25,508 bases of DNA from positions 1-25,508 of the IMG/VR virus record IMGVR_UViG_3300021373_002869, one strand, 5' to 3'. Below, one piece after another: positions 7,060 through 14,829 of this stretch; the stretch's first letter is position 1, and every line of letters begins with the position of its first letter. The stretch is from a virus. The position numbers and the translations under genes were made by a program. The notes under the pieces are model-generated. The model did no database searches and was not told where the DNA came from. It saw nothing but the letters and a program-made list of their open reading frames with translations.

Positions 7060-8861
7060 ACCGCCACCACCTGAACATCTAAGCCGCTGCCGTCGCGCAA
7101 CGCTTCGGCAAAATCATTTTCTATGAACTCGCGAACCGCGTTAGTGTCTGTGATACCGCCGGTAAAATCAATACTAATTACGTTGGTCGGCTGAGTCGTG
7201 CGGTCGGTTATAAAATCATCATCGGCGCTGCTGATTGGATCAAGCCCGCCAAAACCACCGCCGCTGCCTGGTGCACCACCGCCACCACCGCCACCGCCGC
7301 TTAATGCGCCGATAGACCCGGTTCCTAGTTTAATTGCAAACGCTTTGGCTGCTAGTGTTTTGCTGGTCGCTATCGCCGCACCTGCTAATGCTGTGCCTTT
7401 TGCGAGTATAGCCGCTTGAGTCGCACCGGTTGGATCGGGCACAAGCGAGGCTTGTAGTGCGTGCCCTGCTTTAATTGCTGCTGCTTCGCGTGAACCTTGC
7501 GCTAGTATTTCGCTGCCTGCAAATGCTGCATCTATTGCGATGCCTGCTATTGCTGCGGCCTTGCTATCGCCCAACGCTTTCTTGGCAAGGCCCGCTACTG
7601 CTGAGTACCCGGCGCGCTTCAAACCAAATAAGGCGTTGTCTGCTTTTTTCTCAATATTTAAAAGCTCTTTTTTCTCGCTGTTTTTAATACGCAAAAGCTC
7701 GTCTTTTACTAACTGCGCCTGTGATACTTCCGGGCTTTCTGTTGGATCGACTTCGCCTGGCTTGCCTATTACTGCCGCCGCTGCTGCTTCGTTAGCCGCT
7801 GCAATGATAGGCGCAACAAACGCTTGTATTTTTTCTGACGGCGGCGGCGCAAGTAATGCCGCTTGGAATTCTTCAGTAGCGTTGACCGCTGCGCTCACTA
7901 GCTGCTCGCTGATACCTGTGATTGCGCCCTTGAACTCTGAGCCTGTTATAAGATTAACAAAACCCACAACGCCGCTTTCAAGCTCTGCCAGTACCGCAAC
8001 AACGCCCGCCACCGCATTAAACGCAATGACCTTTATCGCTTGGAATACTAGGCTTATGCCGTTGATAGCATCCGCAACAAAACCCGCGCCGGTTATCATG
8101 CTGTTGAATACTTGCGTCGCTACTGTACCTGCGCCGCCTGCTTGCTTCGCCATTTCCAAAAACTGATTGGACGCTGCTTCCAACAATGGCGAAAACTGTA
8201 CCGCTAATTGCTGGCCAAAACCTGAGACTACCTCTTTGGCTTTAAATAGAGAATCGTTAGCCGCTTCGATCTTGGCTATATCGACTCGCGTTAGGGCTAT
8301 GCCATAGTCGTCGATTTCTTTCGATATTGCTTTTAAACCTTCCTCGCCCAGCGCAAGCGTATTAACTAAAGCAACGCCTTCGCTGTCAAATAACTTCATC
8401 GACAACCGGACCTTGTCGCCCTGGCTTGCAACGTTTTCCATCGCGCCGGCTATCTTGGCGAACTGCTCATCCGCTGATAGCTGGGCCAATACTGTTGCGT
8501 CTAGGTTTAATTCTTTCAGCGCGTCGCGTGCTTCGCCTGTGCCCTGCGCGGCCTCTGCTGTACGCCGTACCATGCGCTGTAAAGCCATGTTAGCGGTTTC
8601 TAGCTTAACGCCTGTCAACGCTGCCGCGCGTTGTACGCCCTGCAAAGCCTGTGGCATAACGCCCAGTTTGTCGGCCGTCTTGCCCAGCGCATCGGCTGAC
8701 TTCAAGCCCGCTGCCGTTAGTGCTGCGAGTGCTGCGGTAGAACCTGCAAACGCTGCGACGCCAATCGACCCGGCTTTTTTAAAGCCCTGCTCAACACCTT
8801 TTAGCGCCGACTTTGTTTTGTCGTTCGCTAGTATGTCGTAGGTTATACTTGCTCGTGCCAT
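7056..8861 (-). CDS. Tail tape measure protein
   Basis: 601 residues, Ala-rich and largely helical, with hydrophobic stretches near 30-55 and 250-310, then a Gly-rich stretch near 520-540 containing eight consecutive Gly. The N-terminus 'ASITYDILANDKTKSALKGV' followed by phage tape-measure-type helices (ADKLGVMPQALQGVQRAA) is characteristic. It sets tail length and helps DNA passage. At about 1.5 Å per residue the tail would be near 90 nm, an estimate. ATG 8861 abuts the TAG of the frameshifted chaperone extension, the order expected in lambda-like tails. Confidence 0.85.
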   Translation of the reverse strand: MARASITYDILANDKTKSALKGVEQGFKKAGSIGVAAFAGSTAALAALTAAGLKSADALGKTADKLGVMPQALQGVQRAAALTGVKLETANMALQRMVRRTAEAAQGTGEARDALKELNLDATVLAQLSADEQFAKIAGAMENVASQGDKVRLSMKLFDSEGVALVNTLALGEEGLKAISKEIDDYGIALTRVDIAKIEAANDSLFKAKEVVSGFGQQLAVQFSPLLEAASNQFLEMAKQAGGAGTVATQVFNSMITGAGFVADAINGISLVFQAIKVIAFNAVAGVVAVLAELESGVVGFVNLITGSEFKGAITGISEQLVSAAVNATEEFQAALLAPPPSEKIQAFVAPIIAAANEAAAAAVIGKPGEVDPTESPEVSQAQLVKDELLRIKNSEKKELLNIEKKADNALFGLKRAGYSAVAGLAKKALGDSKAAAIAGIAIDAAFAGSEILAQGSREAAAIKAGHALQASLVPDPTGATQAAILAKGTALAGAAIATSKTLAAKAFAIKLGTGSIGALSGGGGGGGGAPGSGGGFGGLDPISSADDDFITDRTTQPTNVISIDFTGGITDTNAVREFIENDFAEALRDGSGLDVQVVAV

Positions 8862-9331
8862 CTACTTGCGCCTTTTCATCGCTTCCGCTCGTTCATTCAA
8901 AAACCACAACCACCCGCGATACTCATCGACGCGCATTTGCTGCACTTGCTCGACGGTCATTTTCAACTCAAATGCCAGGGCAAATAAATTACCCCACTGC
9001 TGCCCCGGCTTTATTAGTTTTTTTCGCTTTCTTCCTCGCTGTTATCGGTAGCAAGTATAGCGGTGCAAGCCTCGCCAATAACATTCGCCGAAATAAACCG
9101 ACAAAAGTCCAAGAAGTCTGCCGGTGGTACAAGTGCTGTGCCGTCGTCGTTTCTTGCGCGAACCTGAATAATGCGGGCCATTCTAGTAAAGTCGTCGGTT
9201 TCTTTTGCCATCGCCTGCGCTTGGTGTATCGTCAATGGTTTGACGTAAAACGTTGGCAAGCCTTCGACGTTTACTTCTGTTGGCTCGATATTCATATACG
9301 CCTTTTTCGCGTCTTTTATAAAGTCGCTCAT
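8862..9331 (-). CDS. Tail assembly chaperone GT fusion made by -1 frameshift
   Basis: The upstream protein (9331-9014) ends GAA AAA AAC TAA. A -1 slip on A AAA AAC lets ribosomes read on as 'LIKPGQQWGNLFALAFELKM' and onward for 51 residues to a TAG at 8862, next to the tape measure ATG. The fusion would be 156 residues. It is organised like lambda gpG/gpGT, where the short form is in excess and the T extension binds tape measure and tube protein. An 8-bp stem with a 7-nt spacer follows the slip site. The extension has no good start of its own; the first in-frame ATG gives only 32 residues. Confidence 0.85.
8974..9023 (-). promoter_or_regulatory. -1 frameshift signal: slippery site plus stem-loop
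   Basis: Minus strand: slippery A AAA AAC (9023-9017), spacer TAATAAA (9016-9010), then stem GCCGGGGC (9009-9002) pairing with GCCCTGGC (8981-8974), 8 bp with one G·U, around a 20-nt loop. All parts of a canonical signal are present, with the zero-frame stop in the spacer. Confidence 0.85.
9014..9331 (-). CDS. Tail assembly chaperone, short (G-like) form
   Basis: A 105-residue acidic protein (MSDFIKDAKK..., ending EEESEKN), encoded directly after the tail tube gene and before the tape measure. The content fits the gpG-type chaperone: helical, 'YVKPLTIHQAQAMAKETDD' then 'FTRMARIIQVRA', acidic tail. It is expected to coat the tape measure during tail assembly and not be part of the virion. ATG 9331 follows a GGGGG site that lies in a small hairpin. 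A fraction of ribosomes should shift to give the GT fusion. Confidence 0.8.
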   Translation of the reverse strand: MSDFIKDAKKAYMNIEPTEVNVEGLPTFYVKPLTIHQAQAMAKETDDFTRMARIIQVRARNDDGTALVPPADFLDFCRFISANVIGEACTAILATDNSEEESEKN

Positions 9332-9332
9332 A

Positions 9333-9347
9333 ATTACCCCCGGTAAT
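9333..9347 (-). promoter_or_regulatory. Hairpin over the chaperone ribosome-binding site
   Basis: Minus strand ATTACC-GGG-GGTAAT, immediately before TATG. The only Shine-Dalgarno-like bases (GGGGG, 9341-9337) are in the loop and stem, so folding could limit translation of the G/GT gene. Confidence 0.45.
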
Positions 9348-9357
9348 GATTAAAAAA

Positions 9358-9771
9358 TTAAACGCTGGAAGTTGTCAATGCGCCGTTGATTGTTAGGCTG
9401 GCTGAAAATGTAACAAGCGAATCAACGCCGCCGCTTTTTTCAACGCTGGTGACTGTCGCGCCGCCTGCTGTTGTCTCATAATAAGTCGAGCCTGCAACCG
9501 TACCTTCTGGGTAAAGCTCAAAATCAACGATAGACCCCACCACTATATCGGCCTGCCCAGCGTCGTCCGGATTCCAAAAACCCGATAAACTCAAGCTGCG
9601 AGTCGTTGCGCCTGCAATCGTTGCCTTTGTGCAAGTGCCGATCTCGCTTGCGTCGATCTCCTCGGATTCTTCCGATAAAGTCCACTCTTGTACGCCGCCC
9701 ACAACTGCGACGGTCCCGCCTTGTGTCACTGCCTTGAATACGCCGGTACAACCTCGCGTTGCTGTAGTCAT
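9358..9771 (-). CDS. Major tail tube protein
   Basis: 137 residues, beta-rich with low Lys/Arg and high Thr/Gly/Ala, ending in FSASLTINGALTTSSV. The pattern 'GVQEWTLSEESEEIDASEIG' followed by 'SGFWNPDDAGQ' is typical of siphovirus tube proteins built on the tube/Hcp-like fold. It polymerises around the tape measure. Its place between the tail terminator and the G/GT chaperone gene is the expected one. A GAGG lies about 11 nt before ATG 9771. Confidence 0.75.
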   Translation of the reverse strand: MTTATRGCTGVFKAVTQGGTVAVVGGVQEWTLSEESEEIDASEIGTCTKATIAGATTRSLSLSGFWNPDDAGQADIVVGSIVDFELYPEGTVAGSTYYETTAGGATVTSVEKSGGVDSLVTFSASLTINGALTTSSV

Positions 9772-11032: not shown

Positions 11033-13042
11033 TTATGCTCCAGCGTTTTCGGCTAGTGCGCGGTGGCTGATAGCCTTAACACCAACTTCCAAGCGCACCT
11101 TGTAGGTGATGCCGTCGGTGGTGAAGCCGTTCTCGCTTTCCAGCGTTGGTGCTTGCTGGCCATTGAGATACGCCACTTCAATCGTATCGTGCAACGTTGG
11201 ATCGCCTGCCGCATACCATTTGGTCGCGCTGGCTGCATCAAGTCGTGCGTCGCTGATAGTCTCGAACGTACCGTTGAATGGGTTCGGTCGAGTACCGCCA
11301 CCGGCCTTGCCTGTTGACTGCTGGTCTGGATCGGCTGTCGCTGATTGCAAAATCATCGCCTGAGTTTCAAGTGCAACCGGCACAATGACACGCGCGATGC
11401 GAATGTTTTGGCCATGTGCGTTTGACCCCAAACCTTTCTGCTTGGCCATTAACACCTTCAACTCATCTAACGTTGATACGCTAGGCGTGCCCGCAACCGC
11501 TGCTTGGTTAGCGTGTGCCGCTGAGAATAGGTTGTTGCCATCTTGCATTGCTGGGTTTCCGGTTAAAATTGCGTAGACTAAGTCGCCAGTTTTGCGCTCG
11601 GCTGCTCGGCCCATTTCTGCCGGGATGCGCGCCAATGCGTTTAAGTCTTCGTTGATAATGACCTCTCGTGTGATCGAGAATAAACGACCGTATTTCTGGG
11701 CCTGGATATACTCTTTTGAGTCGCTCATTTGGCCATGCTCGTACTCGCCATTTTCAGGCACTTCGGCTAAGTCGCTAAACGTTGAAAGATCAACGCGTGA
11801 TTCTTGGCGAAAGCTCGACACGCTGCCGACGTTACAAAAACCGCGCCAGGTTTCGGCCGCTTCCATAAAGCCCTTTTGCATTTGCTTGTTGGCGATGTTC
11901 TCAACCAACGCAGTAAATACGCTGCTACCGTTGCCTACAAAGGAACGTACCGCGCTGTGAGGCAATGCTGCTGGGTTTAGTGCGTAACCTACTGCACTGC
12001 GCAAGTCGAACTTGTTGACGTTCTCAACACCCATGAGCGTTAAAGAATGCCGCGCCATTTCTGCCATGGTCATGCCGGCAAATTCGTTGCCCGCTAATAC
12101 TGAGCGCGCTTCGTCGCCTGTAACAATCTGCAAACGCGCTTCTAAAGCGTTGCGCATTCCGTCCGCTTGTTTGTCCTCGGCTGCTTCCTTAATACGAACC
12201 TGTGAACGCTGCGCGCCCGCTTCGGTTTTTGGTTGTGGTGCAATGTAATCGCTGTCGCTCTCGTTGCCGATTAAGCCTAACAACTTGCGCTGCGCCTGCT
12301 CGATAGTGCTGCCATCGTCTAGGCACGCATTGCGTAAAGCCTGGTAAACTTCTTGGTCGAACTTAGGCTCGGCAAATAGTGCGTTTATATCTGCTTGGCG
12401 CTCGCGCTCTCGCTTGATGCCTTCGCTTGCACCGGCTTTGCGGGCCGATTCAAAATTTGCAACAACGCCATCGTTAGCGTTATCGCCTTTTGGCGTTGTG
12501 TCTTTGCTCATTGGTGTAGCCTCTTGGTTTGCTGTTGTTGTGGCTTGCTCTCGCTCGCCGGTTGGTAATTCTTGATTGCGCCCTATGCCGACCGAACTAT
12601 CTGCCGGGACCGCAACTACCGACGCTTCCATCGGTGTGAATCTTGTCACTGTATAAACTGTTTCGCCGTCTTCGCCTTGACTTCGTTCTTCGTCGTCGAT
12701 GCTGTAGCGGATGCTAATATCGGTTAGTGTGCCGTCGTCTACTTGCCCCTGGCGCTCTTTGCCCGCTGCACTATTGCTAAACGTTAGATCGCCAACTAGC
12801 TTGCCATCCTCGCGTAGTCGTATGCCATTAACCCTGCCGATTGGTTGGTCCGTGTCATGGTTAAATAACAAAACCAAACCATTGTCGGCGCGCTCCATAT
12901 TGATCGAGTCGGCATCGTGCCTGAGTATCTCGGTATAACCTTGTCGCCGCACTGGTAGCTCACTGCTTAACGATGCGCTGTAAACTGTTCGCCCGTCTTG
13001 CTTGCGCGATTCAATGCGCGCTGTTCTGTTTTGTGTTTTCAC
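11033..13042 (-). CDS. Prohead protease fused to major capsid protein
   Basis: A 669-residue fusion. The N-terminal ~160 residues are a HK97-type prohead protease ('LLFNHDTDQPIGRV', His62; 'TDISIRYSI', Ser110). A charged linker/scaffold-like region (about 165-290, 'EGIKRERERQADINALFAEP') leads to the capsid domain (about 310-669, 'VFTALVENIANKQMQKGFME', 'RIPAEMGRAAERKTGDLVYA'). The protease presumably frees and matures the capsid part. I use GTG 13042, which overlaps the upstream TAG (TAGTG), with AAGAGG upstream; a longer ORF to 13096 would run into the spike gene. In lambda-type operons the protease gene follows portal; here five other genes intervene. Confidence 0.85.
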   Translation of the reverse strand: MKTQNRTARIESRKQDGRTVYSASLSSELPVRRQGYTEILRHDADSINMERADNGLVLLFNHDTDQPIGRVNGIRLREDGKLVGDLTFSNSAAGKERQGQVDDGTLTDISIRYSIDDEERSQGEDGETVYTVTRFTPMEASVVAVPADSSVGIGRNQELPTGEREQATTTANQEATPMSKDTTPKGDNANDGVVANFESARKAGASEGIKRERERQADINALFAEPKFDQEVYQALRNACLDDGSTIEQAQRKLLGLIGNESDSDYIAPQPKTEAGAQRSQVRIKEAAEDKQADGMRNALEARLQIVTGDEARSVLAGNEFAGMTMAEMARHSLTLMGVENVNKFDLRSAVGYALNPAALPHSAVRSFVGNGSSVFTALVENIANKQMQKGFMEAAETWRGFCNVGSVSSFRQESRVDLSTFSDLAEVPENGEYEHGQMSDSKEYIQAQKYGRLFSITREVIINEDLNALARIPAEMGRAAERKTGDLVYAILTGNPAMQDGNNLFSAAHANQAAVAGTPSVSTLDELKVLMAKQKGLGSNAHGQNIRIARVIVPVALETQAMILQSATADPDQQSTGKAGGGTRPNPFNGTFETISDARLDAASATKWYAAGDPTLHDTIEVAYLNGQQAPTLESENGFTTDGITYKVRLEVGVKAISHRALAENAGA

Positions 13043-14829
13043 TATTCCGCAACCTCTTGGTTGTTTGCATCTATAGAATTTGTTGATTGGTCCCATATGC
13101 TAACGCCGCCAACATTAACGGCAACATTGCTGGTAATTAAACAGCCCGTTGTTCCTGTTACAACTCTAATACACTGGTGATCTGTTCCGGTCGCTGCGTT
13201 TTTAATATAGTTATTGCTGATAACCGAATTATTGTTTGCTCCGCTGGCAACTGGGTTTGTAAGTATCGTCACCCCGCCCAGGTTAGTGCCGCCGCTATCA
13301 ATATGATTGCCGCTAATAACTAACGACACGCCAACGTTGGGCCTGATACCGCCGTTTAAAACGTTGCCTGTGACTGTTGTGCAAGTCGATACTTGCTCAT
13401 AGGTTGGCGTGGTTTGGTGTATATGGCAATTTTTTACGTGGTCAACGTAGCGCGTGACCCTGCCATCTGAATTTGAATTGCGTATTGTTACGCCGTCAAT
13501 CGTAACGCTTGTGCTTGATGTTGCACCTAATCCGCCTTGTATATCGGGCAAATTTACGCCGCCGCAATCATCAATAATGCCGCCACTAATACTAACGTCC
13601 ACGCCTTGCGAACAAAATATTGCCCGCGCTGAACCATTTGCAATGTTATTGCCTGATAGTGATACTCGCGTGCCGTTGCATAATATTCCAGTACTAGTGC
13701 AATCGCTTATTTGATTAAAGGCAACAACACAATCTAAATTATTTTCTTTTAATAGATCAAATTTAATTCCTTCCGCAACGCCTTTAATAACGTTCGCTTG
13801 CACGACAAAATTGCGGTGCATATTGTTGCCAACAAAGCCGACGCCCTGCCCGCAATTATCAATAACGTTTGATGTTATGGCTGAGTCTTTAACCTCTGTC
13901 CCGCTGTCTGCGTTATTTACTAATATGCCTGCGTCGGCAAAATCTCTAACAAGGTTATTAGAAATAACGATGCCCAAAATATCATCATCGGGATCAGAAA
14001 CGACATTTTCTAAACCTATGCCACTGCTGCCTGCCAATGCTGATTTAGTGCCCGCAACCGTTGACCCTTGCACTGTGTTATTGGTTACAACGACATTTCT
14101 GCAATTTTGTAAATTAATCGCTGCCGCGCCTGTGTTTGCCACGCCCACTAACAATGGCGATGGCGTCGCTATGCCCGTGTTATTTATGATCTTGCCGTTC
14201 TGTACGAACGCCATGTCGAATGCCTCGTCGCCTATGTTGTATGCGAGGCAATTTTTAATAACTGCATTTTGAATGTATTTTAACTGTATGCCATGCGTTT
14301 GCTCGCCGGTTCCGCCTTCGTGGGCTACTGGGTAAAGGTCTTCGAACTCAACCCCATTGACTGTTACGTTTTGCAAATAATTAGCGTAGTCGCCAACGGT
14401 CGGTAAAACTGCGGGCCATATCTTTAACGCAACGTATGCTTGATTGTCCGGTATTCCATTTTTTGACCATACAAGCCGCGTGTTATTGCCTTTAATAATT
14501 AGATTGCCTGACCCCTGAGTGATTGCCAGCGTTGTGCCTTTGTATATGCCGTATCGACCTGGGCCGAATTCAACAAACGCTGGTAGATTATCACGCGCTG
14601 CAAAAAGCGCTGTCTCGATAGTGCCTTGATCGTTAGTGCTGCCGTCTGCTGTGCATTGGTAGAATGTAACGCCATTGCTGGCTGTAACTGCAATCTGGCC
14701 TTTAGCAAGCGTGCTGTACGCTTTTAAAGTATCTGGCGTTATTCTTTTGTTTGCGCCATCGTCTGCTGCCAACGATTCGGTGCCCGCTGGTGCTGTTATT
14801 TCTGTCCACGTTGTTACACGAGTCGCCAT
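13042..14829 (-). CDS. Tailspike-like right-handed beta-helix protein
   Basis: 595 residues. Residues about 60-110 ('GSTNDQGTIETALFAARDNL', 'FVEFGPGRYGIYKG') form the pectate-lyase-3 entry common in phage tailspikes. From about 140 on there are many short repeats rich in N-x-[IV]-x-x-[CN] (e.g. 'VVVTNNTVQG', 'VISNNLVRDFADAGI', 'LVISGNHID'), the hallmark of a parallel beta-helix. Spikes of this kind bind and often cleave surface polysaccharide. No catalytic residue can be fixed by eye. The N-terminal 50 residues (RITPDTLKAY...) may attach it to the virion. Location between portal and capsid is unusual. Confidence 0.7.
   Translation of the reverse strand: MATRVTTWTEITAPAGTESLAADDGANKRITPDTLKAYSTLAKGQIAVTASNGVTFYQCTADGSTNDQGTIETALFAARDNLPAFVEFGPGRYGIYKGTTLAITQGSGNLIIKGNNTRLVWSKNGIPDNQAYVALKIWPAVLPTVGDYANYLQNVTVNGVEFEDLYPVAHEGGTGEQTHGIQLKYIQNAVIKNCLAYNIGDEAFDMAFVQNGKIINNTGIATPSPLLVGVANTGAAAINLQNCRNVVVTNNTVQGSTVAGTKSALAGSSGIGLENVVSDPDDDILGIVISNNLVRDFADAGILVNNADSGTEVKDSAITSNVIDNCGQGVGFVGNNMHRNFVVQANVIKGVAEGIKFDLLKENNLDCVVAFNQISDCTSTGILCNGTRVSLSGNNIANGSARAIFCSQGVDVSISGGIIDDCGGVNLPDIQGGLGATSSTSVTIDGVTIRNSNSDGRVTRYVDHVKNCHIHQTTPTYEQVSTCTTVTGNVLNGGIRPNVGVSLVISGNHIDSGGTNLGGVTILTNPVASGANNNSVISNNYIKNAATGTDHQCIRVVTGTTGCLITSNVAVNVGGVSIWDQSTNSIDANNQEVAE

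Follow-up and report, generated by a model that had tools for sequence, protein, structure and literature searches.

In phage lambda, a -1 slip near the end of gene G gives access to a short T extension, with G remaining the main product, and the partners of G and GT are the tape measure protein and the major tail protein (as set out in part of PMC5009743). Similar arrangements have been reported well beyond lambda. AAAAAAC is found at the tail chaperone slip site of the phiCbK-like phages and GGGAAAC at that of Colossus (excerpt of PMC3556154), AAAAAAC adjoins the stop of the chaperone gene in gp12/gp13 of Acinetobacter phage vB_AbaS_Loki, where it is a predicted site (excerpt of PMC5313236), and AAAAAAC is possibly used in a Paenibacillus phage (excerpt of PMC6003738). 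The g-t sites of haloarchaeal viruses include both G_GGA_AAC and A_AAA_AAC, and in E. coli slippage at the second of these is weak relative to A_AAA_AAG (section of PMC5009743). Slip sites of this type have also been treated in general, with the use of RBS-like features (part of PMC10885494), and an SD element has been described for dnaX and for T4 gene 60 (section of PMC5009743). Since chaperone sites with AAAAAAC or GGGAAAC have already been published, the arrangement as such is known, and what is added here is the present phage and the extent of conservation across many loci.

The sequence analyzed here, referred to as the window, is the whole 25,508-nt stretch of the virus record IMGVR_UViG_3300021373_002869. 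We are highly confident that a region on its minus strand encodes a lambda-type G/GT -1 frameshift, from which a tail assembly chaperone would be made as two products. As such, it represents an ordinary and well-supported case of a known mechanism in a marine-type tailed phage.

Organization of the locus

PHROGs and Pfam matches place G between the major tail protein (MTP) and the tape measure protein in the order MTP-G-T-TMP, all on one strand, and the tail terminator is also encoded upstream of G, beside the major tail protein (Table 1). The 3' end of G reads GAA AAA AAC TAA TAA, so that A AAA AAC has the phase that a -1 slip requires. From CTA at 9017 to AAG at 8865, the -1 frame holds 51 open codons that are followed by TAG, and this stop adjoins the ATG of the TMP gene as TAGATG, T and TMP being in the same frame. 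The predicted GT fusion would have 156 aa, with the junction ...EK[N/K]LIKPGQQW.... The original prediction had announced a complete signal here, made up of A AAA AAC before the zero-frame stop, a 7-nt spacer, an 8-bp stem and a -1 frame open for 51 codons up to a stop abutting the tape measure start. Every one of these parts is present.

Table 1. Features of the G/GT region, given in window coordinates.
Feature	Position	Strand	Basis
Gene G, predicted tail assembly chaperone, 105 aa	9014..9331	minus	ORF; ATG 9331, stop TAA 9016-9014
Second stop TAA, directly after the zero-frame stop of G	9013-9011	minus	sequence
Slippery heptamer A AAA AAC	9017..9023	minus	-1-slip phase, adjoins zero-frame TAA
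Spacer TAATAAA, 7 nt, from heptamer to stem	9016-9010	minus	sequence
3' stem-loop, 8-bp outer stem GCCGGGGC/GCCCTGGC, further pairing predicted inside	8974..9009	minus	fold prediction
SD-like GAGGAA, 8 nt 5' of the slip site, probable 5' stimulator	9032..9037	minus	anti-SD duplex energy
T extension, 51 codons + TAG, entered after a -1 slip	8862..9017	minus	open -1 frame
Tail length tape measure protein (TMP), 601 aa	7056..8861	minus	phrog_9483, E 1.6e-73
Major tail protein, 137 aa, upstream of G	9358..9771	minus	phrog_1407, E 1.5e-14; PF06199 Phage_tail_2, E 2.8e-7

Two other ORFs of the window deserve a comment. A single ORF of 687 aa (11033-13096) matches both the prohead serine protease PF04586 and the phage capsid family PF25209, and protease and major capsid protein therefore appear to be fused. 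An ORF for a 595-aa beta-helix protein (13040-14826; PF13229, E 3.3e-12; phrog_7458 tail spike, E 1e-4) is located among the head genes, where it overlaps the beginning of the capsid-protease ORF. The sequences flanking this position are only about 6 nt apart in the close relative L003, which suggests that a gene of about 1.8 kb was gained here.

Identity of the G protein

On its own, G from the window had no match in Pfam, PHROGs or NCBIfam, nor any among annotated phages when used as a direct query. The same direct query of viral contigs matched two of them, L001 and the partial L002. Because the direct searches with G yielded so little, relatives were gathered through TMP.

An AlphaFold2 model of G, built on a 30-member alignment, reached a mean pLDDT of 86.4, and its best match in the PDB was the HK97 tail assembly chaperone 2OB9 (Foldseek probability 1.00, E 5.9e-3), with a Z of 9.2, an rmsd of 3.4 and 96 residues aligned. 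The rows ranking below it, at Z 5.9 and 5.1, are presumably phage tail chaperones as well. 2OB9 was also the top PDB match, a weak one (E 0.16), for a profile of G and its relatives. When the 30 alignment members were scanned singly, 22 matched the tail assembly chaperone family phrog_344, and 4 matched phrog_16513, which bears the same name. Besides, a profile of the window G and its close relative matched a profile of 22 distant G proteins with an E of 1.5e-11. The predicted fold and the homology to distant tail modules thus support the assignment of G as a tail assembly chaperone.

Conservation of the slip site

The TMP alignment used to collect relatives provided at least 80 IMG/VR loci and 26 genome loci, to which 15 phage records and the window were added, giving 122 sources examined; L001, L002, L004 and L020, which are duplicates or fragments, had been left out before counting. 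Five sources were too short upstream, three were without the arrangement, and 114 held a G-like ORF together with a -1 ORF, defined as 35 or more open codons in the -1 frame beyond the stop of the G-like ORF. Among the matches listed, the arrangement is thus absent from 3 of 117 testable loci, one of which (L105) does carry a GGGAAAC site and seems to have been missed through an edge effect of the script.

A strong heptamer is located 0-1 codons before the G stop in 66 of the 114 loci among the matches listed; it is AAAAAAC in 52 and GGGAAAC in 14, and in 59 of the 66 it directly precedes the stop. Another 36 of the 114, again among the matches listed, have in the overlap either a different X_XXY_YYZ heptamer or AAAAAAC/GGGAAAC farther from the stop (6-20 codons before it in 8 of these 36), and the G/T overlap of the remaining 12 has no X_XXY_YYZ heptamer. 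As a control, other distinct ORF ends of the related loci were inspected, and AAAAAAC or GGGAAAC occurred no more than one codon from the stop in 7 of 1378, six of these seven being G genes themselves. The seventh is an ORF of L070 (2176-2829), about 1.9 kb upstream of the TMP gene, with AAAAAAC directly before TGA. In the close relative, contig IMGVR_UViG_3300025645_000447, the heptamer is identical to that of the window, the zero-frame stop comes one codon later (AAC TCA TAG) and the -1 frame is still open.

This conservation bears on two alternative explanations. The window comes from the record of an uncultured virus and the frame break falls at a homopolymer, as would be expected if a sequencing or assembly error had split one continuous gene. 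Yet a second contig has the break at the same position, and so do many distant contigs and genomes, some of them with GGGAAAC, and because independent loci share it, such an error can be practically discarded. The other alternative is that the G-T fusion arises when the RNA polymerase slips on the stretch of seven As at 9024-9018. A run of this length is short for transcriptional slippage, which moreover would need no downstream stem, whereas 14 of the 66 strong loci (among the matches listed) have GGGAAAC without a long homopolymer, some of them with a homologous T. As GGGAAAC stands in for the A run in these relatives, polymerase slippage is very improbable.

The T extension

A profile of T from the window and its close relative matched T of 22 distant loci with an E of 1.2e-9, and the window T also matches phrog_26456 (E 3.3e-5), a family annotated as of unknown function. 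At the slip site the T peptides have K-L in common, and they also share an L-A..L motif and an invariant W. Between the window and 3300025645_000447, four sense codons of T are changed, three of the four synonymously in the -1 frame. Conservation of the -1 frame, whose absence the original prediction had named as evidence against the frameshift, was looked for in the relatives and found: slip site, -1 frame and T peptide are all conserved. The observed part of the G/GT reading thus comprises the anatomy of the locus and this conservation, beside a chaperone fold that is predicted.

An additional constraint on positions 8861-9040, which show 5 mismatches in 180 nt with respect to the close relative, was considered and rejected, given that other 60-nt stretches of the TMP gene diverge equally little (0-3 mismatches per 60 nt). 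The low divergence of this segment may be due to recombination.

T could also be a separate protein, made by internal initiation or by termination-reinitiation with no frameshift involved. The -1 frame of the window does contain a TTG at 8966 and an ATG at 8960, and in 8 of 55 distinct related sites the fourth codon of T is an ATG that overlaps the G stop (TAATG/TGATG). Against this, the TTG and the ATG of the window are T codons 20 and 22 and are its first in-frame starts, so that initiation there would omit the conserved ...LFALAFEL, which makes a separate T unlikely in the window; neither ATG nor GTG appears among the first 20 T codons in 28 of the 55 distinct sites, and the in-phase slippery heptamer of 66 of the 114 loci (among the matches listed) would be left unexplained. 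Taken as a whole, we consider a separately initiated T quite unlikely. The sites in which ATG overlaps the G stop form a subgroup (L031, L036, L037, L038, L043, L047, L051 and L060), and because of this overlap reinitiation could there add some free T besides GT.

With G/GT frameshifting as the preferred reading, the annotation should be changed accordingly: G and T of the window, and the paired hypothetical proteins of its relatives, should be joined as G/GT. Gene order, the 2OB9-like model, the homology of G and T and the slip site at 66 of 114 loci (among the matches listed) all agree with the lambda-type chaperone that the original prediction had named.

The downstream stem-loop

The outer stem pairs GCCGGGGC (9009-9002) with GCCCTGGC (8981-8974) through 8 pairs, including one G-U, and encloses 20 nt. 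The predicted fold of the stem-loop has a free energy of -17.9 kcal/mol (z -2.72), and the 46 nt located 3' of the heptamer fold with -19.4 kcal/mol, compared with -11.95 (sd 2.53) in dinucleotide shuffles, of which 1 in 200 was as good. What had been taken for a 20-nt loop is itself predicted to pair, the structure consisting of 10 outer pairs and an inner 5-pair helix closed by a 4-nt loop. Against shuffles that preserve the codons of the window's T, the stem region had a z of about -2.5, and a search of Rfam returned no match within 8700-9400. Inside the inner stem-loop (9001-8982) lies GGGGTAATTTAT, which recurs exactly (12/12) in the G start region of L001, is nearly matched at the G start of the window too (9345-9331), and is similar to the region where ribosomes would bind for G. 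This recurrence is probably due to chance.

The stem-loop had been regarded as specific to this phage, a view that does not hold, as it is identical in 3300025645_000447, and a stem of other sequence occupies the equivalent place in many distant relatives. The sites with GGGAAAC are mixed, some of them being without a clear stem. A 3' stimulatory RNA structure is not known to be needed in every member of the G/GT type.

Covariation was counted over a 15-pair helix in 18 relatives, picked from 61 loci for gap-free alignment; the window, whose T has one codon more, was left out for that reason. In this set, 86.3% of the stem cells are paired compared with 81.0 (sd 1.1) in shuffles, the covariation score is 0.221 compared with 0.127 (0.164 in the best slid version), and both sides have changed in 13 stem cells compared with 6.1. 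The number of pairs with changes on both sides is 4, which is not above shuffles (148 of 500 reached it), and sliding the helix by -1 gives 5.

For a broader comparison, the loci were grouped into 24 clusters by single linkage at 50% identity, one cluster holding 27 loci. The structure following the slip site has a mean codon-preserving z of -1.38 over the 24 clusters (12 below -1.5 and 4 above 0.9); the controls at the T end and in G 180-232 have means of +0.22 and -0.09, respectively. A further control, G 60-112, scored too (mean z -0.88, 8 of 24 clusters below -1.5), and for this reason the test is not fully specific. The putative downstream stem has some support beyond that expected from amino-acid coding, although one control region scored as well and some clusters are without the stem.

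The SD-like element

The 6-mers at GAGGAA in the window form an anti-SD duplex of about -5.7 to -5.9 kcal/mol, which in the window alone is no stronger than in codon-preserving shuffles. Across 59 distinct sites, mean anti-SD pairing is strongest for 6-mers ending 5-7 nt ahead of the heptamer. At the SD-like position, GAG is used over GAA in a proportion of 41:18, compared with 221:340 elsewhere in G (related sequences being counted separately). Over the 24 clusters, the effect is small and significant (p 0.0048 in one test and 0.015 in another), and pairing of -5 kcal/mol or better is found in 16 of the 24, a number that falls to 1-4 clusters when the position is shifted (five shifts examined). 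These data give modest, family-level support for selection on the SD-like element, and the GAGGAA upstream of the slip site is probably a stimulator, as for dnaX.

A broader generalization can be put forward tentatively, since we see it as somewhat more doubtful than probable. A large and diverse group of tail modules, from bacterial genomes as well as uncultured contigs, many carrying record titles of marine gammaproteobacteria, may keep a three-part cassette in which a GGAGG-type SD-like element lies 5-11 nt before an AAC-ending heptamer, the heptamer (A_AAA_AAC or, in its place, G_GGA_AAC) almost always abuts the zero-frame stop, and a stem follows downstream. Frameshifting in this group might be tuned by tRNA-Asn and the waiting stop, and not rely on AAG-type heptamers, which are the most efficient in E. 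coli. The loci offer AAC-type slip sites that differ naturally in having or lacking a stem and an SD-like element, so that the contribution of each stimulator could be weighed.

Proposed mechanism

The majority of ribosomes would read G up to the TAA and release the product of 105 aa. The downstream stem-loop would impose a pause with AAA and AAC of the A AAA AAC heptamer in the P and A sites, and pairing of the SD-like GAGGAA with 16S rRNA, together with the waiting stop codon, would probably help to hold the ribosome. A small fraction would slip back one base, onto AAA AAA, and read 51 further codons, giving rise to GT of about 156 aa. By analogy with lambda, G would coat TMP, the T part of GT would recruit the major tail protein, and the G:GT ratio would matter for tail assembly. 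We infer the slippage itself, its efficiency, the roles of the SD-like element and the stop, and the binding partners.

Comparison with known systems

The window would share with lambda G/GT a -1 slip near the end of G and a short T extension. The lambda slip site, which we take to be G GGA AAG, has as its counterpart in the window an A AAA AAC heptamer that, in contrast to lambda, stands directly before the zero-frame stop and is accompanied by a clear stem-loop. With HK97 gp13 (PDB 2OB9), the predicted fold of G is alike, while sequence identity in the structural alignments is 6-12%. The two heptamers of the window and its relatives are the same as those of gp93/gp94 of Caulobacter phage phiCbK and of Colossus, and AAAAAAC lies next to the chaperone stop in Loki gp12/gp13, as it does in the window.

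The E. coli dnaX cassette comprises an SD element, a slippery A-run heptamer and a stem-loop, as here (section of PMC5009743). The heptamer of dnaX is A AAA AAG, whereas that of the window is A AAA AAC. In both cases SD element, heptamer and stem-loop follow one another in the same order, and the spacing from the SD element to the heptamer, presumably 10 nt in dnaX, is longer than here, where it is 8 nt in the window and mostly 6 in its relatives.
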